NCBI RefSeq assembly: GCF_034259325.1
Contig: NZ_JAXIVS010000001.1
Span: 806,001 to 870,000 of the forward strand
Source of the DNA: Hyalangium ruber
GTDB taxonomy: Bacteria; Myxococcota; Myxococcia; Myxococcales; Myxococcaceae
Direction of reading: 5' to 3'
DNA length: 64,000 nucleotides
The notes beneath the pieces were generated by a model. It saw only the letters and a program-made list of their open reading frames with translations, ran no database searches and was not told where the DNA came from. Below are positions 20,376 to 24,281 of this stretch, one piece after another (the first letter of the stretch is position 1; each line of letters opens with the position of its first letter). The translations under genes and the position numbers were made by a program.

Positions 20376-22367
20376 ATGACTCCATTTAGAACGGTTCGTT
20401 CCGTACGGGCTGCCTTGTTCGCGGGCGCCCTGGCTCTCACGTCCTGCACGGGTGACAAAGGCGACTCGGGCGCCCCTGGCAAGGAGGGGCCCACCGGAGA
20501 CGTTGGCACCGAGGGCCCTCAGGGCCCCCAGGGTCCTCAAGGCGAGGGCATGAAGTGGCTCTCGTTCGAGGACGTGGGCTTTGCCCGCACCGACGCCGAG
20601 AAGCACAAGGTACGCGCCTCGACCAAGGCCAACGTCAACGGTCGCGAGGTCTCCATCGGCTTCACCACGCTGCTGCGCGGTCGCCAGGATCCCTCCCGCC
20701 CCGAGCGCCAGTGTGATCTCGCCAACAGCCCCGCCACCTGTATGGGCGTGCTCCTGTCCGCCTCCGGCCAGCCCCTGCGCGATGACGCGGGCGCGGTCGT
20801 CGTCTCCACCGCCCACGACAACACCACCCTGCAGAAGGTCGGCGACAAGATCTTCATGGTCAACTCGACCGAGTCGATCCCCGCCGCGATGTTCGTGACC
20901 ACCCTCGCGCAGGATCCGGCGACTGGCGCCCTCTCGGCCACCGCCACGCGCGCCCTGGACACCTCGCCCATCGATGGCTTCTGGTACTCGTGCGCCGGCT
21001 CGAAGTCGCCCTGGGGCTCGCACCTGGCCTCCGAGGAGTTCCCCGTCGACGCCCGCTTCATGCAGGAGCGCACCAGCTGGGCCGACCTGCGCACCCGGGC
21101 CACCTCGCCCACCTTCCCCGAGTTCAAGCTCGCCGCCCAGTACTGGGGCGTGAACCTCGAGGACGCCAACCAGGACGGCACCCCGGATGGGGACATCGCG
21201 GACTTCAAGGCGGTGTTCTCGCCCTACTTCTACGGCTTCGCGGTGGAGGCCACCGTGGCCGAGAACGGCCAGGCCACGCTCAAGAAGCACTACGCCATGG
21301 GGCGCCACTCCATGGAGCTGCCCCTCGTGATGCCGGACAACAAGACCGTGCTGCTGACGGATGACGGCACCAACGTGACGCTCTCCATGTTCGTCGCCGA
21401 CACCGCGGGCGACCTGAGCGCGGGCACGCTGTACGTCATGCGCGCGTACCAGACGACGCCCGCCGGCAGTAAGGACTTCATCGCCGACGTCGACTGGGTC
21501 AACCTCGGCCACGCGACGAACGACCAGGTCCGCGCGCTGCTCCACCCGCCCGCGGGCACCCCGCGCATCACCTTCTCCGACATCTTCGAGACGGAGGCGC
21601 CGAACGCGGGCGCCTGCCCGACGGAGGGCTTCAAGCCGGTGCGCGGCGCGAACTCGGAGACGCTCGAGTGCATCAAGCTGCGGCCGGGCATGGAGCTGGC
21701 GGCCTCGCGGCTCGAGACGCGCCGCTACGCCAACTACCTGGGCGCCACCACCGAGCTGAACAAGGAGGAGGGCATGACCTATGACCCCGACTCCCACACG
21801 CTCTACGTCGCGCTGAGCGACATCTCCAAGGGCATGGGCGGGCAGACGGGTGGCGATGACCACATCAACGTCGCCACCAACCTGTGCGGCGGTGTCTTCG
21901 GCCTGAACGTGGGCCCGTGGATGAACGCCAGCGGCACCGTGGTGACCAACTACGCGCCCCTGAACTGGTACCCCGTGCTCGTGGGCGTGCCGCAGACCTA
22001 CACGGCCGGCAGCCCGTACGTGGGCAACACGTGCAGCGTCAACGGCCTCGCCAACCCGGACAACCTGGCCTACCTGCGCGGGTACAACACGCTGATCATC
22101 GGCGAGGACACCGGCTCCGGGCACCAGAACGACGCCATCTGGTCGTTCAACACCGTCACCCGCAAGCTCACGCGCATCATGACGACGCCCTTCGGCGCGG
22201 AGACGACCGCGCCGGGCTGGTTCCCGGATATCAACGGCTACGGCTACCTGACGGCCGTCGTCCAGCACCCCTATGGCGAGAGCGACGCCAACCGCCTCAC
22301 GGAGCCCGAGGCGACCGGCCGTGAGAGCTGGGTGGGCGTCGTCGGTCCGTTCCCGGCGTTGAAGTAG
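20376..22367 (+). CDS. PhoX-like (DUF839) phosphatase lipoprotein with collagen-like linker
   Basis: About 663 residues. Lipoprotein signal with C24 (LALTSC), then 11 uninterrupted Gly-X-Y triplets (residues 26-58, e.g. GDSGAPGKEGP, GPQGPQGPQG), then a large domain resembling PhoX/DUF839 alkaline phosphatases: FWYSCAGSKSPWGSHLASEE, EDANQDGTPDGD, a central YAMGRHSMELPLVMPDNKTV, and GMTYDPDSHTLYVALSD, which are typical calcium/iron-site regions. PhoX enzymes release phosphate from esters outside the cytoplasm. The collagen-like stalk may hold the enzyme off the outer membrane. A heme-motif lipoprotein gene follows. Confidence 0.75.
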   Translation: MTPFRTVRSVRAALFAGALALTSCTGDKGDSGAPGKEGPTGDVGTEGPQGPQGPQGEGMKWLSFEDVGFARTDAEKHKVRASTKANVNGREVSIGFTTLLRGRQDPSRPERQCDLANSPATCMGVLLSASGQPLRDDAGAVVVSTAHDNTTLQKVGDKIFMVNSTESIPAAMFVTTLAQDPATGALSATATRALDTSPIDGFWYSCAGSKSPWGSHLASEEFPVDARFMQERTSWADLRTRATSPTFPEFKLAAQYWGVNLEDANQDGTPDGDIADFKAVFSPYFYGFAVEATVAENGQATLKKHYAMGRHSMELPLVMPDNKTVLLTDDGTNVTLSMFVADTAGDLSAGTLYVMRAYQTTPAGSKDFIADVDWVNLGHATNDQVRALLHPPAGTPRITFSDIFETEAPNAGACPTEGFKPVRGANSETLECIKLRPGMELAASRLETRRYANYLGATTELNKEEGMTYDPDSHTLYVALSDISKGMGGQTGGDDHINVATNLCGGVFGLNVGPWMNASGTVVTNYAPLNWYPVLVGVPQTYTAGSPYVGNTCSVNGLANPDNLAYLRGYNTLIIGEDTGSGHQNDAIWSFNTVTRKLTRIMTTPFGAETTAPGWFPDINGYGYLTAVVQHPYGESDANRLTEPEATGRESWVGVVGPFPALK

Positions 22368-22406: not shown

Positions 22407-22481
22407 GGCTCCATGCAGCAACCCCTTCCGCGGGGGGCCCTGGCCCTCCGCGGTTCCTTCTCACCGGAGTGTCTTGTCCTG

Positions 22482-24281
22482 ATGTCGCCGCGCGCCGCTG
22501 TCCTGCTCTCCTCGCTGCTCCTTCTGGCCAGTGCGTGCCGCCGCACGGAGGCCCAGTCCTCGAAAGATGCGGGCACCCCGAGCGCCACGGCCGACGCCGC
22601 CACGCAGGCGCGGGTGGACCTGCGCAACGACGTGCTCTCGCACCGCACGCCGTACATTCCTCCGCAGTGCTACACGAAGACGCGAGGGGCCCAGGGGCGC
22701 ATCCACAACCCGTGCTTCGTGTGCCACCAGTCGTCGCGCGCGCCCAACTACATCGATGACGCGGCCCTGCAGCTCGACTTCGCCTTCCCCGCGGTGGCGC
22801 GGCGCAACCCGTGGGCCAACCTCTTCGTGGACCGCCGCAAGGCCATTGCCGCCATGCCGGACGCAGAGCTGCTGGCCTACGTCCGCCAGAGCAACTACCT
22901 CGCCCCGGATGGCGCACCCGCCCTCGCGCGCACGCTCCAGAAGGTCCCGAAGGACTGGGACCTCGATGGCAATGGCCGCTGGGACGGATGGAGCCCCGAC
23001 ATCGCCTTCCGCTTCGATGAGCGCGGCTTCGACGTGCGCCCGGATGGGAGCCTCACCGGCTGGCGCGCGTTCGCGTACTACCCCTTCCCGGGCACCTTCT
23101 GGCCCACCAACGGCTCCTTCGGGGACGTGCTGATCCGCCTGCCCGAGGCGTTCCGCCAGGATGAGAACGGCCAGGCGGATGTCACGGTGTACACGCTCAA
23201 CCTCGCCATCCTCGAGGCGCTCGTGGCGCGCCGGGATGTCCCCATCGAGCCCCTCGAGGAGAAGCGCTTCGGGGTGGATCTCGACGGAGACGGCAAGCTC
23301 GCCACCGCGAAGCAGGTGCGCTACCTCTGGAAGCCCCCTCAGCTCACCATGAGCTGGGTGGGCCGGGCGCGCGCGCTGCAACAGCAGGAAGCCGTTCACC
23401 TCGCTGCGGGCCTCTTCCCCGAGGACACGGAGTTCGCCCACACCGTGCGCTACCTGGACGTGGTGGAGGGCAAGCCCCGCATGGCGGCGCGGCTCAAGGA
23501 GCTGCGCTACATGGTGAAGAAGGGCTGGATCAGCTACGGCGCGTTCATGCAGGCGGCGAGTCGGGAGGCGCGCGAGGCGGAGCAGACGCCCGACAAGACC
23601 CGCGCCCTCGGCGGCGTCTTCGAGCAGGGCGTCGGCAACGGTGCGGGCTGGCGCCTCCAGGGCTTCATCGAGGATGCCCAGGGCCAGCTGCGTCCCCAGA
23701 GCCGTGAGGAGCACGCCTTCTGCCTCGGCTGCCACTCCGGCGTCGGCGCGACGGATGACAGCGTCTTCTCCTTTGGCCGCAAGCTCCCCGCCTCCGAGTT
23801 CCAGGCCGGGTGGTTCCACTGGTCGCAGCGGGGCCTGGAGGGCGTACGCGAGCCAGTGCGCGCCGACGGCCACGGCGAATACGCGTACTACCTGAAGCAC
23901 AACGGCGCTGGGGACGAGCTGCGCGCGAACACCGAGGTACTCGAGCGCTTCTTCAACCCGGACGGCGCGCTCCGCCCCGAGGCCGCGCAGGCGCTCCGCG
24001 AGGACATCTCCACCCTGCTCCTGCCGAGCCCCGAGCGGGCGATCCAGCTCGACAAGGCGTACCGGCTGATCGTCCGCGAGCAAAGCTTCACGCGCGGCAG
24101 GGATGCCATCCTCGCCCCCGCCGACAACGTCCACCGTGAGCTGCCCGCAGACGGCCCCGAAATGGAGACGGGGGTGAGCGACGCACTGCCCGGACCGCGC
24201 GAAGGCAAACTCGGCCCCTACCCGGGCCTGCTCGCCCGTCCCAAGCCGGAGCCCTCCAAGGGGCTCACGGACGCGCGCTGA
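22482..24281 (+). CDS. Lipoprotein with two c-type heme motifs (cytochrome-like), function unknown
   Basis: About 599 residues from the ATG at 22482, chosen because it gives a lipoprotein signal (LLLLASAC). Two CxxCH motifs are visible: NPCFVCHQS (C78-H82) and FCLGCHSG (C414-H418), so the protein probably binds two covalent hemes in the periplasm or at the outer membrane. Two Asp-rich calcium-like loops also occur (DLDGNGRWDG, DLDGDGKL). Lies just downstream of the PhoX-like gene and may be cotranscribed. I know no named family with this layout. Confidence 0.7.
   Translation: MSPRAAVLLSSLLLLASACRRTEAQSSKDAGTPSATADAATQARVDLRNDVLSHRTPYIPPQCYTKTRGAQGRIHNPCFVCHQSSRAPNYIDDAALQLDFAFPAVARRNPWANLFVDRRKAIAAMPDAELLAYVRQSNYLAPDGAPALARTLQKVPKDWDLDGNGRWDGWSPDIAFRFDERGFDVRPDGSLTGWRAFAYYPFPGTFWPTNGSFGDVLIRLPEAFRQDENGQADVTVYTLNLAILEALVARRDVPIEPLEEKRFGVDLDGDGKLATAKQVRYLWKPPQLTMSWVGRARALQQQEAVHLAAGLFPEDTEFAHTVRYLDVVEGKPRMAARLKELRYMVKKGWISYGAFMQAASREAREAEQTPDKTRALGGVFEQGVGNGAGWRLQGFIEDAQGQLRPQSREEHAFCLGCHSGVGATDDSVFSFGRKLPASEFQAGWFHWSQRGLEGVREPVRADGHGEYAYYLKHNGAGDELRANTEVLERFFNPDGALRPEAAQALREDISTLLLPSPERAIQLDKAYRLIVREQSFTRGRDAILAPADNVHRELPADGPEMETGVSDALPGPREGKLGPYPGLLARPKPEPSKGLTDAR

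Follow-up and report, generated by a model that had tools for sequence, protein, structure and literature searches.

We analysed a window of 64,000 nucleotides from the Hyalangium ruber genome (10.8 Mb), and the features described below lie on its forward strand. An open reading frame of 663 codons plus stop (20376..22367) encodes a PhoX-like lipoprotein with a collagen-like spacer; the coordinates were confirmed, and the start codon is backed by signal peptides of equal length in three homologues (L003-L005). The nearest named relatives at this gene come from a Myxococcaceae metagenome bin and from Hyalangium versicolor. A promoter scan of the gene region found none. Read by eye, residues 1-23 form a hydrophobic signal peptide that ends, as in bacterial lipoproteins, in a lipobox (LTSC; 20376..20447) whose last residue, Cys24, is encoded at 20445-20447. 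No RR motif of a Tat signal peptide precedes the hydrophobic stretch at this N-terminus, where the lipobox is found instead. The lipid anchor proposed in the sequence-only reading thus stands as a prediction, with a lipobox in all 26 homologues described below.

Only one residue, Thr25, separates Cys24 from the first glycine of a run of eleven uninterrupted Gly-X-Y triplets (residues 26-58; 20451..20549): GDK GDS GAP GKE GPT GDV GTE GPQ GPQ GPQ GEG. The last triplet itself ends in glycine, and the catalytic domain then opens with MKWLSF. The run, which the sequence-only reading had also placed between the lipidated cysteine and the PhoX domain, has the unbroken triplets of bacterial collagen-like proteins. 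The Pfam Collagen profile (PF01391) matched residues 26-56 with an E-value of 3.2e-4 and 20.8 bits, short of the curated cut-off of 27.2, the model having 60 positions and the run only about half that length. A genome-wide search with the profile gave a hit at the same place. It lies far beyond chance: at the glycine frequency of the catalytic domain (0.093), the probability of eleven glycines at every third residue is about 4e-12 per start. In the DNA, tandem repetition was confined to the 3' end, where a 9-base unit recurs 3.6 times, and nine of the eleven triplets are distinct. On these figures we rejected an origin of the run by chance or as a DNA-repeat artefact.

The rest of the protein (20550..22364) is a PhoX-type beta-propeller domain. 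The PF05787 (PhoX) profile matched it at an E-value of 2.6e-15 with 57 bits, the curated cut-off being 24, so that the assignment to a PhoX/DUF839-like family made earlier from the letters was borne out by a profile search. Searched against the PDB, a profile built from 57 relatives hit P. fluorescens PhoX (E-value 3.5e-16) and, up to an E-value of 1, nothing else. The AlphaFold model, made from the same 57 sequences, had a mean pLDDT of 94.6, and its best match among solved structures was again P. fluorescens PhoX (4a9v; Z 25.2, rmsd 3.9 Å, 459 of 606 residues aligned at 21 percent identity), while the next-best family reached Z 21 over 270 residues. The PF05787 score and the match to 4a9v exclude a domain other than PhoX. 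Matches to NCBIfam models of type III pantothenate kinase reached only 16 bits, where the cut-offs are 487 and 388, and were rejected.

Six residues out of a published set of ten were compared at the active site, and five of these six are identical: C206, E221, E314, D330 and E465 are the equivalents of PhoX C179, E194, E273, D292 and E387, and R385 is replaced by K463. We take C179, E194, E273 and E387 to be active-site or metal-ligand positions of PhoX. A literature search for PhoX ligands by residue name gave nothing relevant among the matches listed. The numbering of R385 and D292 agrees with the residues named in the accessible part of PMC11098088. K463 does not argue against activity, because Psip1 of marine picocyanobacteria, an active alkaline phosphatase according to the same part of that source, also has lysine at the position of R385. 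We regard the PhoX fold and metal site of the Hyalangium ruber protein as practically certain, and phosphatase activity as likely. The same genome also holds a second PhoX (L052, G000:C8 near 306227-307381), which is closer to the Pfam model, has no stalk and carries a Tat-like RR motif (RRRTLLRAG).

Among 145 genomes searched within the order, 18 hold a total of 26 full-length homologues, the window gene included, all at least 45 percent identical to the window protein. All 26 have a lipobox, as judged by eye, followed by 6-16 unbroken triplets, and none lacks the repeats. The spacer is thus real and conserved, and its triplet number varies between orthologues, a comparison suggested together with the original claim. 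In a more distant PhoX-like protein of 37 percent identity (L020 in G028) the signal peptide is of the ordinary kind and triplets are absent, and a second distant PhoX-like place, in G035, is split in pieces.

In a scan of named genomes we examined the best 80 of 197 wider relatives, whose N-termini were classed by eye. A lipobox followed by Gly-X-Y triplets was seen in 17 of them, and 11 have a lipobox with a linker that is short, Asp/Pro/Gly-rich or nearly absent. In 48 an ordinary signal peptide leads straight into the domain, and the N-termini of four (L098, L121, L126 and L144) are fused, shortened or ambiguous. Collagen-like stretches therefore occurred solely behind a lipobox among these 80 (17/28 lipoproteins against 0/48 proteins with an ordinary signal peptide); the 11 lipidated relatives without a run indicate that the lipoprotein form does not require it. 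A quick tree by maximum likelihood, with an unsettled root, was built from one outgroup and 79 family members, namely the window protein and 78 of the 80; L098 and L126 were omitted, and L121 and L144 were counted as soluble. The stalked sequences formed a Myxococcota-type cluster and a separate cluster of Oceanospirillaceae (Thalassolituus, Oleispira). The state of the stalk needed three changes on this tree, so it was gained or lost more than once, with gain and loss not told apart.

Directly downstream lies a gene for a two-heme c-type cytochrome lipoprotein (22482..24281, with an alternative ATG at 22413), recognised from its sequence and a structure model. It has a lipobox (ASAC) and two heme motifs, CFVCH (22713-22727) and CLGCH (23721-23735). 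A terminator-like hairpin of 11 pairs (22428..22453) separates the two genes and counts against their unconditional co-transcription; two such sites were found in the region, where 1.2 were expected. The model of the cytochrome had a pLDDT of 87.2, and its best Foldseek match, a cytochrome P460, was not confident (E 0.0094). The 14 structure matches listed in a second look were all cytochrome P460 or c'-beta, the best of them weak (6hiu, Z 5.4 over 135 residues), and the Pfam Cytochrome_P460 profile (PF16694) scored 19.1 bits where its cut-off is 27. These matches give weak support to a P460-like core. MauG or cytochrome c peroxidase, to which no profile or fold match was obtained, was set aside as the less probable identity, and the cytochrome family beside the PhoX-like gene is an uncharacterised one.

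The pairing of the two genes, which the sequence-only reading did not include, is widespread. A homologue of the cytochrome (tblastn, 43-79 percent identity) was located directly downstream on the same strand in 62 of the best 80 of 197 relatives, among them all 17 stalked loci, and upstream in one (L140). It was not found nearby in the remaining 17, two of which have 0 and 759 downstream bases. Within the order, 25 of the 26 homologues have the cytochrome as a neighbour, L013 (G080) being the sole one with none detectable. The pairing extends over Myxococcota, Alphaproteobacteria and Thermodesulfobacteriota; in several loci of the last group the cytochrome frame is about 1000 residues long with a third CXXCH, and in one such long frame that was scanned (L078) a TolB-like propeller is fused to it. 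The cytochrome is lipidated or apparently membrane-anchored in 23/29 loci with a tethered PhoX against 0/32 with a soluble one, where the classes were assigned by eye, three loci with ambiguous PhoX N-termini were excluded, and the co-variation amounts to one independent change on the tree only. In the loci of the wider relatives no other family of neighbours recurred to an extent comparable to the cytochrome, and no phosphate-related gene recurred. Extracellular phosphate scavenging, the role originally suggested for the enzyme, is thus not supported by its surroundings, where the cytochrome is the only gene common to the loci. A functional link between the PhoX-like protein and the cytochrome is probable.

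The anchor is shared with other proteins. Many other open reading frames across the order matched the PhoX-like lipoprotein in its N-terminal 50 or so residues only. Five of the proteins so found (L025, L029, L024, L031 and L048) are OmcA/MtrC-like multiheme cytochrome lipoproteins with Gly-X-Y triplets directly behind the lipidated cysteine. NCBIfam identifies L025 (1537-3141) as a decaheme cytochrome of the OmcA/MtrC type (389 bits, with 209 as the cut-off), and L029 was assigned by its near-identity to L025, which had been scanned. Among nine module-bearing proteins scanned, four, L025 included, exceeded the cut-off of the MtrC/MtrF domain and two contained DUF7151. Another of the nine, a metallo-beta-lactamase-fold lipoprotein of the same genome as the window (L043, G000:C2:746500-749500), has seven Gly-X-Y triplets behind its lipobox. 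Lipid anchor and Gly-X-Y run form a general module in these bacteria, fronting unrelated lipoproteins. Three further lipobox proteins of the same genome (L056, L057 and L059) have a Gly-X-Y run close behind, and one of them, scanned as L042, carries DUF7151 repeats.

What the stretch does physically can be approached through its composition. In 37 stalks, with 6-22 triplets each and 429 in total, proline was the commonest residue at X and at Y. Where lysine occupies Y and the X of the following triplet is Asp or Glu, the two make the classic inter-chain salt bridge of triple helices, as established in work on collagen peptides. This pairing was seen 11 times against 2.8 expected when triplets were shuffled in the 26 stalks, and 8 times against 2.2 in the 18 non-redundant stalks of the 37; not one of 5000 shuffles reached either observed count. 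The reverse pairing, Asp or Glu followed by lysine, was not clearly enriched (2 against 0.8 expected). The enrichment favours collagen-like selection on the stretch over selection for a generic linker, with residual kinship among the stalks remaining.

The odds are about even that the run forms no triple helix and acts only as a spacer, a single chain, either flexible or polyproline-like, whose variation comes from slippage of 9-base repeats. Such a spacer would account for the free variation in length (6-22 triplets), for the Asp/Pro/Gly-rich linker or near absence of one in L084 and L148, and for those stalks that are simple repeats (GDP, GTN). On the other hand, the stretch in the window is mostly not a DNA tandem repeat, yet its glycines are strictly periodic, and a plain linker leaves the Lys-Gly-Asp/Glu pairing without a reason.

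Both of these features are what a true collagen triple helix would show, glycine recurring without a break at each third residue and X and Y differing. A trimeric enzyme would then be displayed on its stalk outside the outer membrane, and the OmcA/MtrC family, whose cytochrome the same module fronts, consists of cell-surface lipoproteins. A precedent is available in Burkholderia Bucl8, a lipidated collagen-like protein for which a trimeric partner domain has been proposed (PMC4565658, accessible part). The window protein itself offers less to this idea: no trimerisation domain was found in it, its catalytic domain does not differ from that of soluble relatives without a stalk, and a hinge is nearly absent, since the structured domain starts at most about four residues past the last triplet. 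Several homologues of the order have runs of only six to eight triplets, which would hardly hold a trimer alone without hydroxyproline, and several distant stalks (GTN/GQD type) are almost without proline. The trimer put forward in the sequence-only reading did not find support here; we consider such a displayed trimeric enzyme unlikely, and are equally doubtful about a stable trimer in the cell.

The reading that we favour, with some reservation, is a tethered, probably metal-dependent PhoX-like phosphatase working with a heme partner. The gene product would be a metallophosphoesterase of the PhoX type (Fe/Ca) with a lipid anchor; once Cys24 is lipidated, a short collagen-like spacer would hold the enzyme off the membrane, the choice of membrane being, like lipidation, a prediction. 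The rise of a triple helix is about 0.29 nm per residue. The 33 residues would reach about 9 nm if fully triple-helical, and similarly far as a single polyproline-II-like strand. Spacing is very probably the main job of the stretch, and a triple helix could be aided by the crowding of lipid anchors. The adjoining lipid-anchored cytochrome is probably a dedicated partner, which most likely sets or keeps the redox state of the iron/cysteine site of PhoX, or otherwise matures the enzyme. We read it as a maturation or redox partner, and not as a bystander, mainly because a PhoX of Flavobacterium is likewise encoded beside a MauG-like cytochrome; in the accessible parts of PMC8115612 and PMC8812569 this PhoX is an outer-membrane lipoprotein, and both proteins increase on phosphate depletion.

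The pairing could also mean that the PhoX-like domain is no phosphatase and provides the metal site of a redox pair whose other half is the two-heme cytochrome. This would fit the spread of the pairing over Myxococcota, Alphaproteobacteria and Thermodesulfobacteriota without recurring phosphate genes, and also the low sequence identity to PhoX, about 20 percent. Flavobacterium PhoX produced in P. putida showed no detectable activity, and the authors point to the adjoining cytochrome; in its own host, however, it adds to the inducible phosphatase activity (PMC8812569, accessible part). The five retained active-site residues and the relatives without a cytochrome also speak against a pure redox pair, which we hold to be rather improbable. 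More ambitious still, and quite improbable as a whole, is a widespread two-gene system in which a two-heme P460-like cytochrome activates or rewires the metal centre of a PhoX-type Fe/Ca protein. In Myxococcota and some Oceanospirillaceae this protein would sit on the membrane as a trimer on a lipid-anchored mini-collagen, a display module that in Myxococcota also serves multiheme cytochromes and a metallo-beta-lactamase-fold lipoprotein.

Our searches of the open-licence literature, where absence is weak evidence, found no prior description of a bacterial PhoX with a collagen-like stretch, of a collagen-like decaheme cytochrome, or, in myxobacteria, of a collagen-like lipoprotein or collagen triple helix. 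As far as the same literature shows, and with the same weakness, a conserved heme partner of a PhoX-like lipoprotein of this kind has not been described in print. If the tethered-phosphatase reading is true, a minimal collagen would serve bacteria as a modular piece that sets an enzyme apart from its lipid anchor, and the stalkless, linker-bearing and soluble relatives are natural controls for this. With a heme protein conserved as its neighbour, the family also allows one to ask whether metal sites of the PhoX type depend on redox maturation, a question which the accessible part of PMC8812569 raises for Flavobacterium PhoX.

The architecture is real, conserved and unusual, a PhoX variant on a known kind of tether. 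As for the tether, Burkholderia Bucl8 and Bucl3 are likewise predicted lipoproteins with a collagen-like region; Bucl8, however, is an efflux outer-membrane protein with no PhoX enzyme, and a Gly-X-Y spacer directly behind the lipidated cysteine is not among the features described for either protein in the accessible part of the source (PMC4565658). As for the enzyme, the protein shares with P. fluorescens PhoX (PF05787; PDB 3zwu, 4a9v) the beta-propeller and the equivalents of C179, E194, E273, D292 and E387, and differs from it in its low identity (about 20 percent), the lysine in place of R385 and the neighbouring cytochrome. PhoX usually, though not obligatorily, has a Tat signal, whereas the window protein has a lipoprotein signal and a Gly-X-Y spacer. 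With Psip1 it has in common a PhoX-like propeller with lysine at the R385 position; by its description in the accessible part of PMC11098088, Psip1 has no recognised conserved domain or counterpart of D292, whereas the window protein has PF05787 and D330. The closest parallel in gene arrangement is F. johnsoniae, where the PhoX-like lipoprotein Fjoh_2478 adjoins the c-type cytochrome Fjoh_2477 (PMC8115612, PMC8812569, accessible parts). Compared by description and not by sequence, Fjoh_2478 has no Gly-X-Y stretch mentioned in these parts, and its partner is MauG-like (PF03150), unlike the weakly P460-like core found here. Since the two cytochromes belong to different families, the association of a PhoX-like protein with a heme partner may have two separate origins.
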